Positions 46,470 to 55,883 of a stretch of 64,000 nucleotides of DNA are shown piece after piece. The notes beneath the pieces were generated by a model, which was not told the DNA's origin, did not search any database, and saw nothing but the letters and a program-made list of their open reading frames with translations. Origin of the DNA: Pseudonocardia oceani (lineage in GTDB: Bacteria; Actinomycetota; Actinomycetes; Mycobacteriales; Pseudonocardiaceae); the NCBI RefSeq assembly GCF_019263585.2, contig NZ_JADQDF010000001.1, forward strand, positions 3,038,001 to 3,102,000, in the 5' to 3' direction. A program made the translations under genes and the position numbers. Positions within the stretch are counted from its first letter, which is position 1. Each line of letters starts with the position of its first letter.

Positions 46470-47654
46470 TCAGTCGTGCGCCCCGCGGGCGCGTGCGACG
46501 GTGCCGGAGACCTCGCCGAAGCCGATCCGGGTGCCGCCCGGGCCCGGCGCGGTGGCCGAGATCGTCACCTCGTCGCCGTCGAGCAGGAACGTCCGCTGCT
46601 CCCCCTTGACGGTGACCGGCTCCTTCCCGCCCCAGGTCAGCTCGATGAACGCCCCGCGCTGGCGCGGCTCGGGCCCCGAGACCGTCCCGGAGGCGAACAG
46701 GTCGCCGGTGCGCGCCGACGCCCCGTTGACGGTGAGGTGCGCGAGCATCTGCGCGGGCGACCAGTACATCTCCCGGTAGGGCGGGCGCGCGACCTCCTCG
46801 CCGTTCCACTCCACCACCAGGTCGACGTCGAGCCCCCAGTCCTCGCCCCCGCGCAGGTAGGGCAGCGGCTGCGGGTCCTGCCCGGGCAGCGGCATGCGCG
46901 CGGCCTCCAGCGCGGCGAGGGGCACCAACCACGGGCTCACCGAGGTGGCGAAGCTCTTGCCCAGGTGCGGCCCCAGCGGCACGTACTCCCAGGCCTGCAG
47001 GTCGCGCGCGGACCAGTCGTTGACCAGGACCGCGCCGAACACGTGCTCGGCGAACTCGTCGACGCCGATCCGCTCCCCCAGCGCCGACCCGGTGCCGACG
47101 ACGAACCCCAGCTCGGCCTCGATGTCCAGGCGCCGGCTCGGGCCGTAGGTCGGGGCGGGCTCGTCGGGCGCCTTGCGCTGCCCGCACGGGCGCACGACCT
47201 CCGTCCCCGACACGACGACGGTCCCGGCCCGGCCGTGGTAGCCGACCGGGAGGTGCTTCCAGTTCGGCATGAGCGGCTCGGAGTCGGGCCGGAACAGGCG
47301 CCCGAGGTTGGTCGCGTGGTGCTCGGAGGCGTAGAAGTCGACGTAGTCGGCCACCGCGAACGGCAGGTGCATCGTCACCGCGGCGACGGGGTGCACGGCG
47401 TCGTCCGGGACGTCCCCGGCCAGCAGCGCGGTGATCCGCTCCCGCACCTGCGTCCAGCGCGCGCGGCCCTGCGCCAGGAACCCGTTGAGCTCGGGCGCGG
47501 CGAACACCGGGTCGTCGAGCAGCCGGGCCAGGTCGACGACGGCGTCACCCAGGCGCACCCCTGCCCGCGGCGGCGCGCCGGGCGTCGAGAAGACGCCGTA
47601 GGGCAGGTTCGCGAGACCGAACGGGGAGCCGTCCGGGACGTCGACGACGGTCAC
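46470..47654 (-). CDS. fahA: Fumarylacetoacetase
   Basis: 394-residue last enzyme of homogentisate breakdown, splitting fumarylacetoacetate to fumarate and acetoacetate. The N-terminal SH3-like domain (about 1-115) starts SPFGLANLPYGVFST; catalytic/metal text includes DYVDFYASEHHATNLG, PVGYHGRAGTVVVSG, DIEAELGFVVG and VNDWSARDLQAWEYVPLGP. GTG 47654 overlaps the hmgA stop (GTGA). Maleylacetoacetate isomerase is not visible nearby and may be elsewhere or not needed. Confidence 0.95.
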   Translation of the reverse strand: MTVVDVPDGSPFGLANLPYGVFSTPGAPPRAGVRLGDAVVDLARLLDDPVFAAPELNGFLAQGRARWTQVRERITALLAGDVPDDAVHPVAAVTMHLPFAVADYVDFYASEHHATNLGRLFRPDSEPLMPNWKHLPVGYHGRAGTVVVSGTEVVRPCGQRKAPDEPAPTYGPSRRLDIEAELGFVVGTGSALGERIGVDEFAEHVFGAVLVNDWSARDLQAWEYVPLGPHLGKSFATSVSPWLVPLAALEAARMPLPGQDPQPLPYLRGGEDWGLDVDLVVEWNGEEVARPPYREMYWSPAQMLAHLTVNGASARTGDLFASGTVSGPEPRQRGAFIELTWGGKEPVTVKGEQRTFLLDGDEVTISATAPGPGGTRIGFGEVSGTVARARGAHD

Positions 47655-48847
47655 CGGGCCGGCCCCCGCCCCGACCAGGTCCAGGCGTAGGCGGGGTCCT
47701 CGGCGGCGACGCCGCCCTCGCCCAGCTCCATCGGGCGGAACGTGTCGACCATGACGGCGAGCTCGTCGAAGAACTCCGCGCCGATCGAGCGCTCCACGGC
47801 GGCGGGCTGCGGGCCGTGGCTGTGGCCGCCGGGGTGCAGGCTGATCGACCCCTGCTCGATGCCCGAGCCCTTGCGGGCCTCGTAGCTGCCGCCGCAGTAG
47901 AACATGATCTCGTCGGAGTCGACGTTGGAGTGGTAGTAGGGCACCGGGATCGACAGCGGGTGGTAGTCGACCTTGCGCGGCACGAAGTTGCAGATCACGA
48001 AGTTGCCGCCCTCGAACACCTGGTGCACGGGCGGTGGCTGGTGCACGCGGCCGGTGATCGGCTCGTAGTCGGCGATGTTGAACGTGTACGGGTAGAGGCA
48101 GCCGTCCCAGCCCACGACGTCGAACGGGTGCGTCGGGTAGACGTAGCGGGTGCCGGTGACCCCACGCGACCCGCGGTGCTTGACCAGTACCTCGACGTCG
48201 GTGCCTTCGGTGAGCAGCGGGCCGTCGGGGCCGTGCAGGTCGCGCTCGCAGTAGGGCGCGTGCTCGAGCAGCTGCCCGTAGCGGGACAGGTAGCGCTTGG
48301 GCGGCGCGATGTGGGAGTTGGCCTCGATCGCGTAGGCCCGCAGCGGCTCCGAGCCCGTGGGCACCCACCGGTGCGTGGTCGAGCGCGGTAGGACCACGTA
48401 GTCGCCCTGGCGCGCGGACAGCGACCCGAACACCGTCTCCACCGTCGCCGACCCGGACTCGACGTACACGCACTCGTCGCCGGTGGCGTTGCGGTAGAGC
48501 GGCGAGGCCTCCCCCGCCACGACGTAGGAGATGCGGACGTCGGCGTTGCCCAGGACCAGGCGGCGCCCGGTGACGACGTCCACGGCCTTCCAGTCCTCGT
48601 CGAACAGGCTGTGCAGCTTCAGGTGGCGCGGCAGCAGCGGGCGGTTCTCGGTGGTCGACTGGTCGGGCAGCTCCCACGGCGTGGCGTCGACGATCGCCGA
48701 CGGCACGCCGGAGTGGTAGAGCAGCGAGGAGTCCGAGGAGAAGCCCTCCTCGCCCATCAGCTCCTCGTAGTAGAGCGCCCCGGCCGCGTCGCGGTGCTGG
48801 GTGTGCCGCTTGGGCGGGATGTCACCGGCTCGTCTGTAGAACGCCAT
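47651..48847 (-). CDS. hmgA: Homogentisate 1,2-dioxygenase
   Basis: 398-residue Fe(II) ring-cleavage dioxygenase turning homogentisate into maleylacetoacetate. Cupin iron ligands are contained in segments YYHSNVDSDEIMFYCGG and SISLHPGGHSHGPQP. The N-terminal part has the family RHTQHRDAAGALYYEELMGE. Start ATG 48847. It overlaps the monooxygenase gene by 26 bases and fahA by four, so the three are co-expressed. Key enzyme in defining this as a homogentisate pathway. Confidence 0.95.
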   Translation of the reverse strand: MAFYRRAGDIPPKRHTQHRDAAGALYYEELMGEEGFSSDSSLLYHSGVPSAIVDATPWELPDQSTTENRPLLPRHLKLHSLFDEDWKAVDVVTGRRLVLGNADVRISYVVAGEASPLYRNATGDECVYVESGSATVETVFGSLSARQGDYVVLPRSTTHRWVPTGSEPLRAYAIEANSHIAPPKRYLSRYGQLLEHAPYCERDLHGPDGPLLTEGTDVEVLVKHRGSRGVTGTRYVYPTHPFDVVGWDGCLYPYTFNIADYEPITGRVHQPPPVHQVFEGGNFVICNFVPRKVDYHPLSIPVPYYHSNVDSDEIMFYCGGSYEARKGSGIEQGSISLHPGGHSHGPQPAAVERSIGAEFFDELAVMVDTFRPMELGEGGVAAEDPAYAWTWSGRGPAR

Positions 48848-50456
48848 GCGGGGTCTCCTCCCTGGAGGTGGTGCGGGCGGCGGCGCGGGCCAGCGCCGTG
48901 GTGATCGACTCTCGGGTGGGTGCGGCGACGACGGCGGCGACGTGGGCGTCCGGGCGGACGACCCACACCTCGTCGGGCCGCGCCCCCAGTGTGGCCGTGA
49001 GCGTGCCGTCGGGGTCGAGCGCGCGCAGGGCGAGGACCCGCACGGGCCCCGGGGCCTCCGCGGCGGCCGCCCGGACGGCGTCGGGGTCGGTGGCGTCGCC
49101 GGTCAGGAGCAGGAAGCCGTCGCGGGCCAGCGCCCGCACCCGCCCCTGCGGCGCGTCGACCGGCGCGTCGGGCAGCAGCACCCCGGGCGCCGCGGGCGGG
49201 ACCTGCCCGCGCGGGGGCCGGCCGTCGAACGGGCGGCGCGGGTCGCCGGTGGTCAGCGGGGAGTCGACGTACCAGAACGGCTCCGAGAGCCGGCCCGAGT
49301 CGACGTCGGCGCGCGCGGCCGGGTCGAGCGCCGCCCGCGCCAGCACCTCCTCGCGGCGCCGCGCCCGCTGCGCGTCGGGCGGCACGAGGAAGTCCATCGT
49401 GGCCGTGGTGACGGCGATGTTCTCCAGCGCCGCGGCGTGCCGCTCGTCGTGGTAGCTGTCGAGCAGCGACTCCGGCGCCCAGCCGTGACCGACGTAGGCG
49501 ATCTTCCAGGCCGCGTTCTCGGCGTCCGCGACGCCCGAGTTGAGCCCGCGGGCCCCGAACGGCGAGACGAGGTGGGCGGCGTCCCCGGCGACGAGGACGC
49601 GGCCGCAGCGCATGCGGTCGACCACGCGGGAGTGGAAGCGGTAGACCGAGTTCCACACGATCTCGTAGGGCCGCTCGCCGACGATCGCGCGGATCCGGGC
49701 GTCCAGGGCGCCCGAGGCGGTCTCGGCGTCGAGGTCGTAGTCGGCGGGCACCTGCCAGTCGATCCGGAACGTGCCGTCCGGGCAGGGGTGGATGAGCACC
49801 TGGCGGCCCGGGTTCCACTCCGGGTCGAAGTGGAAGCGCCGCTCGGTGGCCCAGCCGGGCAGGTCGGTGCGGATGTCGCAGATGAGGAACCGGTCGTCGA
49901 AGGAGTGGCCCGCGAAGCCGACGCCGAGCAGCCGGCGCAGCTCGTCGCTGCGCGCCCCGCCGCAGACGACGAGGTAGGAGCCGCGCACCACCGTGCCGTC
50001 GGCGCAGCGCGCGGTGACGCCGTCGCCGTCCTGCTCGACGTCCGTGACCCGGTGGTCCCAGCGCAGGTCCACCAGCGGCTCGTCGGCGATGCGCTCGTCG
50101 AGGATCTGCTCGGTGCGCGTCTGGGAGATGTTGACGAACGGTGGGAACGCCGGCCGGCCGGGCTCGGCGAAGGCGTAGCTGAACAGCTCGGCGCCGCGGT
50201 GGAACGTGCGCGCCGTCGTCCAGGTGACGCCTTCGTCGGCGATGCGCCGGCCCGCGCCGACGGCCTCCCACACGTCGAGGACGTCGCGCTGCTGGCAGAT
50301 GGCCTTCGAGCCGACGGTGTCGCGCTCGGTGCGCTGGTCGAGCACGACCGTCGGCACGCCCCAGCGGGCGAGCAGCAGCGCGGTCGTCTGCCCGACGGGG
50401 CCGGCGCCGAGTACGACGACCGGGTCGAGCGGCCACGTCGGAGGGGTGGTGGGCAT
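48822..50456 (-). CDS. FAD-dependent aromatic-ring monooxygenase (MhpA-like)
   Basis: 544-residue class A flavin monooxygenase. FAD motifs: VVVLGAGPVGQTTALLLARW at the start, the DG-like motif and GRVLVAGDAAHLVSPFGARG (about 285-304). Its C-terminal thioredoxin-like domain is about 410-530. It most resembles 3-(3-hydroxyphenyl)propionate hydroxylase-type enzymes, so it may hydroxylate a hydroxyphenyl acid to homogentisate, feeding hmgA (3-hydroxyphenylacetate 6-hydroxylation is one idea; inference). Start ATG 50456. Overlaps hmgA. Confidence 0.88.
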   Translation of the reverse strand: MPTTPPTWPLDPVVVLGAGPVGQTTALLLARWGVPTVVLDQRTERDTVGSKAICQQRDVLDVWEAVGAGRRIADEGVTWTTARTFHRGAELFSYAFAEPGRPAFPPFVNISQTRTEQILDERIADEPLVDLRWDHRVTDVEQDGDGVTARCADGTVVRGSYLVVCGGARSDELRRLLGVGFAGHSFDDRFLICDIRTDLPGWATERRFHFDPEWNPGRQVLIHPCPDGTFRIDWQVPADYDLDAETASGALDARIRAIVGERPYEIVWNSVYRFHSRVVDRMRCGRVLVAGDAAHLVSPFGARGLNSGVADAENAAWKIAYVGHGWAPESLLDSYHDERHAAALENIAVTTATMDFLVPPDAQRARRREEVLARAALDPAARADVDSGRLSEPFWYVDSPLTTGDPRRPFDGRPPRGQVPPAAPGVLLPDAPVDAPQGRVRALARDGFLLLTGDATDPDAVRAAAAEAPGPVRVLALRALDPDGTLTATLGARPDEVWVVRPDAHVAAVVAAPTRESITTALARAAARTTSREETPHGVLQTSR

Positions 50457-50493: not shown

Positions 50494-51453
50494 TCAGCCC
50501 TGCAGCTGCGCCCAGACCTCCTGGTCGCGCTCGGCGGTCCAGATCACCGGCCGCTCGACGCCCGAGAGCTCGTCGAAGAGTCGGGAGACGTCGAAGGGCA
50601 GGCAGTGCTCGAAGATCGGCCAGTGGCCGTAGTCGTCTACGAGGGCGGCGTGGCTGGCCTCGAAGGCTTCCTTGAGCGTGCCACCGCGCTGCTGGACCGC
50701 CCCCACCTCGCGCAGCATGACCTGCAGGAACCCGCGCGTCTGCTCGACGGCGGCGTCGACCTCCGCGCGCCCGCGGCTGACCGCACCCCGCCCGCCGACG
50801 AGCTGCTCGGCGCCGACGGCCTTGATGCGGTCGAGCGTGAGGCCCGCCCAGTCGCGGTGGAAGGCGTCACCGGTGTAGAGCGCGGCCTGGGCCTCGACGA
50901 GGTCGCCCGCGAACAGGATCCGGTGCTGCGGCAGCCACGCGGTGATGTCGCCCTCGGTGTGCCCGCGGCCGTGGTACTGCAGCACGAGCTCGCCGCGGTC
51001 GCCGCCGAGGTCGATCGTCAGCCGGTCGGCGAAGGTGAGGGTGGGCCAGGTCAGGCCGGGCACCGACTCGGCGGCCTCGGCGAGGCGGGGCATGCGCGCG
51101 AACTCGCTGGCCCAGTCCTGCTCGCCGCGCTCGGCGATGAGGTCGCGGGTGATCTCGTGCGACACGATCGTCTCGGCGTCGAACGCGCTGGCGCCGAGCA
51201 CGCGGACCGCGTGGTAGTGCGAGAGCACCAGGTAGCGCACGGGCTTGTCGGTGTGCTCGCGCAGCATCGCGAGCCAGCGGCGCGCCGCGACCGGCGTGGC
51301 GAGGGCCTCGAAGCAGACGAGGAAGTCCTCGCCCTCGATCGCGCCGATGTTCGGGTCGCCCTCGGCGGTCAGCGCGTAGACGCCGTCGGCCAGCACCTCG
51401 AGGGTCTGCTCCTTGACGGCGGTGTCGGCGGACGAGGCGAACGGCTTGGCCAT
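50494..51453 (-). CDS. Metallo-beta-lactamase-fold protein with altered metal site
   Basis: 319-residue MBL-fold protein, first gene of the homogentisate operon. The fold is recognisable (GVYALTAEGDPNIGAIEGED; HGRGHTEGD with His165; FAGDLVEAQ with Asp184). But the central HxHxDH metal motif reads HYHAVR at 79-84: the Asp and third His are replaced by Val83 and Arg84. It may bind one metal only or be a non-hydrolytic member. GTCC leader with GGAGGA precedes ATG 51453. Its role in aromatic catabolism is unknown; cleavage of a lactone or thioester would fit a typical member. Confidence 0.82.
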   Translation of the reverse strand: MAKPFASSADTAVKEQTLEVLADGVYALTAEGDPNIGAIEGEDFLVCFEALATPVAARRWLAMLREHTDKPVRYLVLSHYHAVRVLGASAFDAETIVSHEITRDLIAERGEQDWASEFARMPRLAEAAESVPGLTWPTLTFADRLTIDLGGDRGELVLQYHGRGHTEGDITAWLPQHRILFAGDLVEAQAALYTGDAFHRDWAGLTLDRIKAVGAEQLVGGRGAVSRGRAEVDAAVEQTRGFLQVMLREVGAVQQRGGTLKEAFEASHAALVDDYGHWPIFEHCLPFDVSRLFDELSGVERPVIWTAERDQEVWAQLQG

Positions 51454-51550: not shown

Positions 51551-52105
51551 TCAGCGGCGGCGGCTGACCCACTCCTGGTCGTGCGCGGCGCGGGCCAGCT
51601 TGCGCAGCACGGCGTTGAGCGTGCCGAGCTCGTCGGGGGTCAGCAGGCCGGCCCACTCCGCCTCGCGCCGGTTGTGCACGAGGAAGACCTCCTCCAGCGC
51701 GGCGCTCCCCTTCCCGGTGAGCGACAGGACGACCGTGCGGCCGTCGCGGGCGTCCGGGCCGCGTTCCAGTACGCCCGATGCGTCCAGCGTCTTCGACAGG
51801 CTCGACACCGCCGCCCGGCTCATGCCCGCCAGCGCGGCGGCGCGCCCGGCCTCCTGCGGCCCCGACACCCACAGCGTGAACACCAACCGGAACGCCGACC
51901 AGCTCCAGCCCGCGGGCCGGTGCACCGTCGACTCCAGGTCGTAGACCACCGTGTTCGCGACGCGGTGCAGCAGCAGGACCATCGCCATCGCCGACCGGTC
52001 GGTGCCGGGCAGCCGCTCCGCGGTGGTGTCGAGGGCGATCTCGGCGAAGGACAGGAAGTCGTCGCTGCCGGACAGCTCGGGACCGGGTTGCGGGGGCGTG
52101 GGCAC
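51551..52105 (-). CDS. MarR-family regulator
   Basis: 184-residue winged-helix MarR protein. The DNA-binding part (about 75-140) includes QEAGRAAALAGMSRAAVSSL and the wing GPDARDGRTVVLSLTGKG. Aromatic ligand response is usual for the family. It lies 97 bases upstream of the MBL gene in the same direction; that gap carries an AT-rich stretch at 51479-51501 (AAGGTTTTACTACTTGG) that stands out and may be the promoter/operator of the catabolic operon. Start GTG 52105. Confidence 0.87.
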   Translation of the reverse strand: MPTPPQPGPELSGSDDFLSFAEIALDTTAERLPGTDRSAMAMVLLLHRVANTVVYDLESTVHRPAGWSWSAFRLVFTLWVSGPQEAGRAAALAGMSRAAVSSLSKTLDASGVLERGPDARDGRTVVLSLTGKGSAALEEVFLVHNRREAEWAGLLTPDELGTLNAVLRKLARAAHDQEWVSRRR

Positions 52106-52155
52106 GGACCGATGGTAGGAGTCGACACAGGTCGTCGGCGTGGCCGACCGGCCCC

Positions 52156-52583
52156 GCACGACTGGCGCAGGTGCGCCTGCCCGCCTGGAGCCGCGGGCGC
52201 GTGGCGGTCGTCGGCGACGCCGCCTACTGCGCCTCGCCGGTGAGCGGGATGAGCACCAGCCTCGCCCCCGTCGGCGCCTACGTGCTGGCGGGCGAGCTCG
52301 CCGCGCACGACGACCACCGCGCCGCGTTCGCCGAGACCGAGGAGCGGATGCGGCCCCACGTCGACGCCGCCCAGGACCTGTCGCCCGGCGTGCCGTGGAT
52401 CGCGCACCCGCGCGCCCGCCCCGGCGTGGCCGCCTGCAGACCGCGATCCGTGTCGTCGGGAGCACCCCGGCGCGGCGGGTGGGGACGGTGGTCGGTGCGG
52501 TGGCGGGGCTGTTCTCCGGCCCGTCGTCCGAGCTCGTCGACCTCTCCGGCTCCCCCTCCATCGCGGCTTCTACGGCTCTCTAG
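52156..52583 (+). pseudogene. Remnant of an FAD-dependent monooxygenase (TetX/PHBH-like)
   Basis: Only the C-terminal third of a flavin monooxygenase remains: RLAQVRLPAWSRGRVAVVGD (52159 on) then AYCASPVSGMSTSLA and VGAYVLAGELAAHD, which is the GD motif region. Around 52429-52430 two extra bases change the frame; the continuation from 52431 reads RLQTAIRVVGSTPARRVGTV and ends at 52583. The first two thirds with the FAD start motif are absent. A decayed gene, convergent neither with MarR nor needed by cbs. Confidence 0.85.
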
Positions 52584-54723: not shown

Positions 54724-55146
54724 TCATCGATCCAGGCCGAGCCGCTCGATCCGGGACGGGTGGACGCGGAAGACGAACGGCCCCGGCCGACGGCACGCTG
54801 CCACGATCGCGGGCAGGTTCTGCAGGACGCGGGCGACGTTCTCCGCCGCCGGGACGTTGCCGTTGAGGACGAACTCGCGGACCCCGCTGTCGAGCAGCGC
54901 GGCTCGTTCGGCGGGTCGGCGCCGCTTGCGGTGCTTGGAGTCGCAGCAGAGCACCGGCCAACCGCGCCGCGCCGCCTCCGGCAGCCAGACGTCATCGACC
55001 ACGGTCTGGCTCTCCTCGACGCCGTAGTGCTCGAAGATCGTGACGACGGTCAGGCCAGCGGCCCGGAGCCCGTCGGGGAACGCCAGGCGCCCGAGGTCGC
55101 GGTCGGTGAAGAACGTGGGGGTGTCAGGCCGCCGCGGTGTGGACAC
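54724..55146 (-). CDS. PIN-like toxin of VapC45 type
   Basis: 140-residue PIN-like domain protein similar in size and layout to M. tuberculosis VapC45 (Rv2019, 138 residues). Acidic residues for metal binding include FTDRDLGR (Asp15, Asp17) and VLCCDSKHRKRR. Toxins of this kind are RNases acting in the cytoplasm. It follows the antitoxin gene with a 23-base overlap (55124-55146). Start GTG 55146 by fit to the domain; assigned by pattern memory rather than a search. Confidence 0.8.
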   Translation of the reverse strand: MSTPRRPDTPTFFTDRDLGRLAFPDGLRAAGLTVVTIFEHYGVEESQTVVDDVWLPEAARRGWPVLCCDSKHRKRRRPAERAALLDSGVREFVLNGNVPAAENVARVLQNLPAIVAACRRPGPFVFRVHPSRIERLGLDR

Positions 55147-55831
55147 GCAGCACGCTCAGCAGGTCGTCGCGGGGAACGCCGTACTCGGCGACCAGGCCGT
55201 CGATGTCGGTGCCGGCCTTGAACGCGGCGATGACCGTCTCGACCCGGACCGCACCGCGGGCGAAGATCGGGATCCCGTAGGACCGCCGAGGGTCGACGAC
55301 CACGTCGGCCGTGCCGTATTTGCGGAGGTGGATGCGCTGGGCCCAGCCGTCCTCGGCGAAGTCGACACGGCGGAGGTAGCTGTCGACGACGTCGTTGAAG
55401 ACGCGCTGCCCGTGCCGCACGACGACGAGGTCACGGGCACCGCGGGCCTCGGGGGTGTCGCCCTCCCGCTCGGCGAAGTCGTAGAGCAGTTCCGCGCCGT
55501 CGGTGTAGAGCGACCGCGAGGCCAGGACGTGCTCGATGCCCAGCTCACGCTGCAGGAGGTCGAGCGCCGGCCGGATCCGCTGCAGCGGGACGCCCGCGCC
55601 CCGGATGGCGGCCAGCGCGTGCGCCTCGGCGAGACCCACGAACGGCACCGACATGCCCGCGTCGCGAGGCAGCGTCGTGACGATCGCATCACCGGTGACC
55701 GGGCGGCGTCCCTCCGTGCGGTGCAGGTAGCCGTGCGCCCACGTCCGGAAGGTCGACACGGGCACGTCCAGGTACCGCGCCGCCTCCGTCACCGAGTACA
55801 GCGGTACGCGGAAGCGGTCGTCGGCGGGCAC
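55124..55831 (-). CDS. VapB45-like antitoxin (HTH plus DUF433)
   Basis: 235-residue DNA-binding antitoxin. The N-terminal MerR-like HTH is about 10-35 (YSVTEAARYLDVPVSTFRTW), the C-terminal DUF433 HTH is about 175-230 (RRSYGIPIFARGAVRVETVI; GTDIDGLVAEYGVPRDDLLS). Size fits VapB45 (Rv2018, 239 residues). It is longer than most VapB proteins. GTG 55831 is preferred; an in-frame GTG at 55864 is possible, with GGGAGG between the two. Expected to bind the toxin and repress the pair. Confidence 0.8.
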   Translation of the reverse strand: MPADDRFRVPLYSVTEAARYLDVPVSTFRTWAHGYLHRTEGRRPVTGDAIVTTLPRDAGMSVPFVGLAEAHALAAIRGAGVPLQRIRPALDLLQRELGIEHVLASRSLYTDGAELLYDFAEREGDTPEARGARDLVVVRHGQRVFNDVVDSYLRRVDFAEDGWAQRIHLRKYGTADVVVDPRRSYGIPIFARGAVRVETVIAAFKAGTDIDGLVAEYGVPRDDLLSVLRVHTAAA

Positions 55832-55883
55832 GGGAGGAGTCTGCCACCTCCCGATCCTCACCACGGCCCGTTTCGCGGAACGC

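Follow-up and report, generated by a model that had tools for sequence, protein, structure and literature searches.

The MBL-fold protein encoded in an aromatic gene cluster of our window (the whole 64,000-nucleotide stretch of the Pseudonocardia oceani genome that was analysed) appears from its sequence to belong to a discrete family in which metal site 2 has been lost (D to V, H to R, and GHG to GRG) and metal site 1 has been kept. The confirmed motif, HYHAVR in the place of HxHxDH, describes this whole uncharacterised family, which has a deposited structure, and is not a quirk of this operon. The explanation that we favour, at a probability of about 0.42 for the whole of it, is a one-metal enzyme that would hydrolyse an ester, lactone or thioester of the hydroxyphenylacetate type beside a flavin-dependent step.

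The gene occupies positions 50494 to 51453 on the reverse strand as one open frame of 319 amino acids, with GGAGG just 5' of its start ATG at 51453. Translation of this frame bore out the motif reading of an earlier note on this DNA (HYHAVR, with H165 and D184 kept, and GGRGAVS), and the full series of family motifs reads HYHAVR, GHTEGD, GDLVE, GGRG and EHCLPFD. Residues 32-212 match the Pfam profile Lactamase_B (PF00753; E 2.4e-13, 50.9 bits against a cut-off of 22.7), and a structural model of the protein matches solved MBL structures, of the alpha-beta/beta-alpha fold, at Z above 20. The protein is therefore a member of the MBL superfamily, an assignment common to the Pfam, NCBIfam and PDB searches. 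Among the best 25 of the 45 NCBIfam families, it fell below the cut-off of every model, with the B1 and B2 models all far under theirs, and a beta-lactamase was rejected on this basis. Class B1 in particular has D120, C221 and H263 where this protein has V83, D184 and R222, and its model NF033088 scored 55.4 bits against a cut-off of 200. The best NCBIfam matches, which included the C-terminal region, were the quinoprotein relay system zinc metallohydrolases 1 and 2, although these too were far under cut-off (98.6 versus 280 bits for TIGR04559; 74.2 versus 300 for TIGR04558), and a plasmid-encoded protein annotated as the type 2 relay metallohydrolase (L113) has HMHPDH and GHG, unlike the window family. 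A promoter and terminator scan at the gene found none, and a search with a 16-base stretch upstream of it gave nothing useful.

The metal ligands were read in BBL numbering, as given in the available part of a review (PMC4819959). By our mapping, which follows motif order and the alignments, H79, H81, H165 and D184 correspond to H116, H118, H196 and the bridging D221, and V83, R84 and R222 fall at D120, position 121 and H263. On the reverse strand, the H79-Y-H81-A-V83-R84 codons lie at 51202..51219, H165 at 50959..50961, D184 at 50902..50904, and R222, within G221-R222-G223-A-V-S, at 50788..50790. Against the canonical dinuclear HxHxDH site, the three site-1 ligands are present and the three site-2 ligands are replaced in every one of 109 family sequences. 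The B1 enzyme BcII also has Arg at position 121 (HAHADR in the alignments), and it binds two zincs; R84 alone therefore means little, and V83 and R222 are the decisive losses. Of the two lost ligands counted in the earlier note, the one replaced by V83 was telling and the one replaced by Arg at 121 was not, and R222 adds a third replaced site-2 position. The protein probably holds a single metal, at site 1.

The 109 sequences comprise the window protein, 80 loci (the best 80 of 222 confirmed, Actinomycetota by title and 78-93% identical), seven matches from a sample of the phylum (all non-self) and 21 plasmid loci hand-picked from the top 49 rows of a search that matched 188 plasmid records; the plasmid loci derive from alpha-, beta- and gammaproteobacteria and two rhodococci. 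The window's own locus (L081) was left out as a duplicate, and two others (L082 and L083) fell short of the E 1e-25 cut. Across the window protein and its 108 homologues, H79, H81, A82, V83, R84, H165, D184, G221, R222, G223 and H283 are identical in 109/109, and Y80 is replaced by F in one member (HFHAVR). In total, 56 positions are invariant across these sequences from two phyla, Actinomycetota and Proteobacteria, and the site-1 residues, D184, V83, R84, R222 and H283 are likewise kept in every one of 48 representatives, with identities as low as 43%. All four aligned outside relatives have HxHxDH and GHG, with D at position 83 and H at positions 84 and 222, and H283 (codon 50605..50607, reverse strand) is family-specific, being S, R, E and R in these relatives; a fifth, L083, was left out of the alignment, having no match at E 1e-3. 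The family formed a single group apart from the four outside relatives (support 100/99), in a tree with flagged long branches and a bootstrap that had not settled.

This invariance implies that the motif is not the result of chance or sequencing error, and a single aberrant or damaged protein is ruled out. The earlier note had taken the protein to be aberrant; HYHAVR is instead the norm of its family. The simplest reading of the alignment is that all three site-2 replacements would predate the last common ancestor of the family and have been held ever since. A member at E 1e-40 was found in 8 of the 296 genomes drawn from the phylum of the window, its own genome included. Among the best 60 of the 188 plasmid matches, the first 52 have at least 41.7% identity and the remaining eight at most 33.3%, with nothing between; the 52nd spans only 63% of the query. 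In the plasmid records listed, the gene is annotated mostly as just 'MBL fold metallo-hydrolase'. The first match in the plasmid collection, NZ_LT559118.1 from Nonomuraea, is 11.85 Mb long and is probably a chromosome.

The AlphaFold2 model (mean pLDDT 82.8, pTM 0.86) was built from a shallow alignment of the window protein and 25 relatives at 77-89% identity. Its closest solved structure is 8d2z (Z 39.8, rmsd 1.8, 303 aligned residues, 48% identity), a 'Metallo-beta-lactamase superfamily protein' of Burkholderia cenocepacia released in 2023, which is itself a member of the family: it matches the window protein over residues 1-318 (E 1.8e-89), shares HYHAVRVLGASA, GRG and EHCLPFD with it, and has the equivalents of H79, H81, V83, R84, H165, D184, R222 and H283. 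Its title names no function, and no open-access literature linking the code 8d2z with 'metallo-beta-lactamase' was found. A look-alike in B. multivorans (L109), recognised by eye from its N-terminal sequence, adjoins a transporter gene and not an FAD gene. After the second-best match, chlorothalonil dehalogenase, the next structures were alkylsulfatases, CphA and Sfh-I, B1 enzymes and PqsE, partly tied at Z of about 21.5-23.4. The C-terminal helices of the model, at 260-275 and 279-296, lie inside the range aligned to PqsE, in which two C-terminal helices restrict the active-site tunnel (PMC3769375, in the part available). H283 is in the second of these helices and may lie near the metal.

In the window, the gene is part of a same-strand series of a MarR-family regulator, the MBL protein, an FAD-dependent monooxygenase, a dioxygenase-like cupin protein and a fumarylacetoacetase, separated by gaps of at most 97 bp or overlapping, and the conserved-looking aromatic cluster described in the earlier note was thus borne out by sequence. 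The MarR gene (51551..52105, reverse strand; profile frame 51551-52108, start judged from sequence; Pfam E 8.7e-7) lies 97 bp upstream, so that the MBL gene, earlier called the first of the operon, is either first or second of the set. The monooxygenase gene, directly downstream (48822..50456, reverse strand), matches FAD_binding_3 (E 9.2e-58) and passes the subfamily cut-off of NF006002/PRK08132 (482.6 versus 416 bits). The fumarylacetoacetase gene (46470..47654, reverse strand; profile frame 46470-47675) scored 445.6 bits against a TIGR01266 cut-off of 375.3; its start, judged from sequence, overlaps the previous stop.

The cupin gene (47651..48847, reverse strand) overlaps the FAD gene by 26 bp and encodes a divergent homogentisate 1,2-dioxygenase-like protein. 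It was rejected as a curated HmgA (57.3 bits against the TIGR01015 cut-off of 510.75), so the hmgA of the earlier note is present only as a divergent homologue; it is distantly similar to solved homogentisate dioxygenases (E about 1e-7), and a search of the genome found no other close homologue of this kind. The same genome encodes a 4-hydroxyphenylpyruvate dioxygenase elsewhere, over cut-off, which rules out the idea that it has no tyrosine route. The cupin protein may be an actinobacterial form of homogentisate dioxygenase. Just upstream of the MarR gene, a short forward-strand frame at 52171-52400, reading GRVAVVGDAAYCASPVSGMSTSLAPVGAY, had no Pfam match at 0.001; we take it to resemble the C-terminal part of an FAD monooxygenase, and it is possibly a gene remnant. 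Farther along, two overlapping reverse-strand frames at 54724-55146 and 55124-55864 encode a PIN-like protein (PF18478) and an HTH_66/DUF433 protein, a pair that looks like a toxin-antitoxin type.

The gene order varies between loci, and the MBL-FAD pair is mostly kept. An FAD monooxygenase gene lies directly 3' of the MBL gene in 94 of the 104 loci with at least 1.4 kb downstream (85 counted by script and nine filed as overlapping and then checked); in one of these 94, L002, it is just a fragment. The ten exceptions are heterogeneous: the FAD gene is about 3.4 kb downstream in L089 and 5.3 kb away on the other strand in L110, an FAD-DUF2783 pair lies upstream of the MBL gene in L103, a partial FAD match follows a VOC gene in L094, the only FAD match in L051 is a distant one (28%) on the opposite strand at 4.2 kb, and no FAD gene was found in the flanks of L004, L008, L011, L107 and L109. 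In a wider view of the seven loci from the phylum sample, the FAD gene was directly downstream in six and within 4 kb in all seven.

Among the 85 loci flanked by no less than 6.9 kb on either side, FAD genes were found in 80 (including L051 and L110), homogentisate dioxygenase in 53, fahA in 49, matches to the MarR protein of the window in 37, DUF2783 in 16 and maiA in 11; these counts are lower bounds because of the limited flanks, and they are not independent, since the loci are related and were all found via the MBL gene. With a dioxygenase in 53/85 and fahA in 49/85, both lower bounds, the MBL gene is not a constant partner of hmgA and fahA, and the suggestion in the earlier note that such proteins might always accompany these genes did not hold. 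The link between the MBL protein and the dioxygenase is nevertheless stronger at the genome level than in the flanks: a homologue was found somewhere in 25 of the 26 genomes behind 27 Actinomycetota loci without a flanking dioxygenase (25 of the 32 dioxygenase-less loci, plus L036 and L041 with shorter flanks), and one genome, G321, had no homologue anywhere at E 1e-50.

Most annotated proteobacterial loci encode the MBL protein, the FAD monooxygenase, DUF2783, hmgA and a fumarylacetoacetase, with maiA in several. In L093, L096 and other proteobacterial loci, the FAD monooxygenase gene is followed by one for a DUF2783 protein of about 60-80 residues. Pfam lists DUF2783, which one open-access paper was found to name, as being of unknown function, and our guess, from size and place, is that these are coupling proteins of the MhaB type. 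Five loci on proteobacterial plasmids (L094, L102, L107, L124 and L126) encode a VOC-family protein and have no hmgA in the stretch seen, as is the case in the MBL loci L094, L102 and L107; fahA is present in L102 and L126. The VOC protein of such clusters is possibly an alternative ring-cleaving dioxygenase. A nitrilase-type carbon-nitrogen hydrolase gene (L089/L140) and an amidase gene (L092) also adjoin the cluster, and these neighbours would fit arylacetic acids as substrates.

In L004, L008, L011 and L109, the MBL gene sits beside a transporter gene with no FAD gene in the flanks, and in L109 the whole 2.4 Mb replicon had no FAD match at E 1e-30. The three Pseudonocardia genomes represented by L004, L008 and L011 have another MBL copy, behind which FAD and dioxygenase genes lie. 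Two or three MBL copies were observed in three Pseudonocardia genomes (L002/L128, L004, L008, L011 and L132), one copy belonging to an MBL-FAD-dioxygenase set and another preceded by MarR and transporter genes, with L002/L128 followed by an FAD fragment only. A related transporter gene also precedes the MBL-FAD pair in L007, L013 and L022, the latter two with dioxygenase and fahA genes, so that the MBL copies without FAD may be partial duplicates; this arrangement also weakened the use of the transporter-MBL pair as a marker of pathway entry.

The nearest described pathway is MhaAB-HmgABC, in which an FAD hydroxylase and a 60-residue coupling protein turn 3-hydroxyphenylacetate into homogentisate (PMC3053370, in the part available). 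The MBL loci resemble the mhaAB-hmgABC clusters in their FAD monooxygenase, small putative coupling protein and homogentisate genes, and differ from them in the MBL gene: the accessible portion of PMC3053370 describes no MBL protein and does not contain the word 'lactamase'. In Cupriavidus pinatubonensis JMP134, all three hydroxyphenylacetates enter homogentisate, according to the accessible portion of PMC8449657, in which 'lactamase' is likewise absent. Within the open-access literature, no published function was found for this MBL family or for an MBL protein in homogentisate clusters.

Two known one-metal systems invite comparison with the window family. Class B2 carbapenemases (CphA and Sfh-I, Z about 23) share the MBL fold, and some of their entry titles give them as mono-zinc. 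Their zinc sits at site 2, the site whose residues are replaced in the window family. Chlorothalonil dehalogenase (6uxu; Z 29.1, rmsd 2.8, 277 aligned residues, 18% identity) has, like the enzyme proposed here, one catalytic zinc and an aromatic substrate. That zinc is held by D116, H117, H257 and N216 (PMC12784990, in the part available), which we read as site 2, the reverse of the arrangement proposed here, and the residues taken as their equivalents in the window protein are V83, R84, R222 and D184, so that the ligand set of the dehalogenase is not present.

In the enzyme that we favour, a single metal ion would be held by H79, H81, H165 and D184, that is, by site 1 and the bridging Asp. 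The invariant R84 and R222 would probably bind a substrate carboxylate or oxyanion and so stand in for the second metal, and H283, on its C-terminal helix, may serve in catalysis or as a ligand. Acting either ahead of the neighbouring FAD monooxygenase or on its product, the enzyme would allow homogentisate or an analogue to reach the ring-cleaving dioxygenase and the fumarylacetoacetase. We tentatively assign to it, at somewhat less than even odds, the hydrolysis of a derivative (ester, lactone or thioester) of an aromatic acid of the hydroxyphenylacetate type; from general chemistry, homogentisate lactone would be the leading candidate substrate. Most characterised MBL-fold enzymes are hydrolases, and hydrolysis is favoured here because of the fold, the intact site 1, the arginines, which would suit a carboxylate or an oxyanion, and the cluster L124. 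In that cluster, of which 11.5 kb was seen, no MBL gene is annotated, and the operon with the FAD-DUF2783 pair encodes an alpha/beta hydrolase (Pfam match below cut-off). The replacement of the MBL protein by a hydrolase is not clean, since L107 carries both, and the argument for hydrolysis is accordingly thin.

Whether the protein is an enzyme at all bears on the earlier suggestion of a redesigned mono-metal enzyme or a non-catalytic sensor. Its first half agrees with the intact site 1 and the family-wide replacement of three site-2 positions; its second half fits poorly with the invariance of the site-1 ligands and bridging Asp over two phyla, an enzyme-like pattern, and we consider an enzyme very probable. 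A non-catalytic ligand-binding or scaffold protein, such as one that senses the substrate or stabilises the FAD monooxygenase, would be consistent with the usual pairing of the two genes and with PqsE (Z about 22), which is seen bound to RhlR (8dq0) and so provides a case of the MBL fold working through protein contact; the ligands of a mere binder would be expected to drift, and with site 1 and the bridging Asp complete and invariant we regard this as unlikely. Mutants of PqsE show a comparable division between the sites: in the available part of PMC3769375, H69A, H159A and D178A (site 1 and the bridging Asp) abolish pyocyanin production and D73A and H74A (site 2) have little effect, although H221A (site 2) also significantly lowers function and H71A (site 1) does so only partly. 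This phenotype may reflect protein contacts and not catalysis.

The identity of the metal could also differ. The H79, H165 and D184 triad would suit a mononuclear Fe(II) enzyme of the persulfide dioxygenase/ETHE1 type (2-His-1-carboxylate), one that would work with the flavin monooxygenase in oxygen or redox chemistry. Genes for a ring-cleaving dioxygenase, as well as for a flavin monooxygenase, are present in most of the annotated clusters. In the persulfide dioxygenase PaPDO, a single metal is bound by H71, H146 and D163 (PMC12856154, in the part available), which we take to be the positions of H79, H165 and D184 and which are kept in the window family. H81 is equally invariant, as a site-1 zinc would also explain, and no redox partner residue was identified. 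The known persulfide dioxygenase/ETHE1 members, to our knowledge, keep the full HxHxDH, and their substrate is glutathione persulfide. The 60 profile matches and the 50 structural matches listed included no persulfide dioxygenase, which excludes nothing, and overall we consider an iron enzyme of this type quite improbable. Least likely of all is a normal dinuclear site with compensating ligands elsewhere. H283, E187 or C284 could supply such ligands; within the family H283 and E187 never vary, and all four outside relatives have other residues there. Arg, however, now occupies two of the three site-2 positions, where it would coordinate poorly and repel another cation.

A bolder extension of the site-1-only enzyme that we favour, which we hold to be rather doubtful, is that the family represents a new catalytic subclass of the MBL fold, the mirror of the B2 and chlorothalonil dehalogenase type. 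Such enzymes would use the site-1 metal only, with the invariant arginine pair and a cap histidine in the place of the second metal, for an undescribed and possibly non-hydrolytic, mononuclear-iron step in the flavin-dependent conversion of hydroxyphenylacetate to homogentisate, in Actinomycetota and Proteobacteria alike. The deposited crystal structure 8d2z makes the question of the metal site testable at once. The scheme in the available part of PMC3053370 leads from the flavin hydroxylase straight to homogentisate with no MBL protein, and the family suggests that the bacterial hydroxyphenylacetate route has a step that is still missing or a partner protein that has gone unrecognised. If the site-1-only reading is true, an MBL-fold enzyme can drop metal site 2 and fill it with arginines, and the family would provide a natural experiment on why most of the MBL fold needs two metals.
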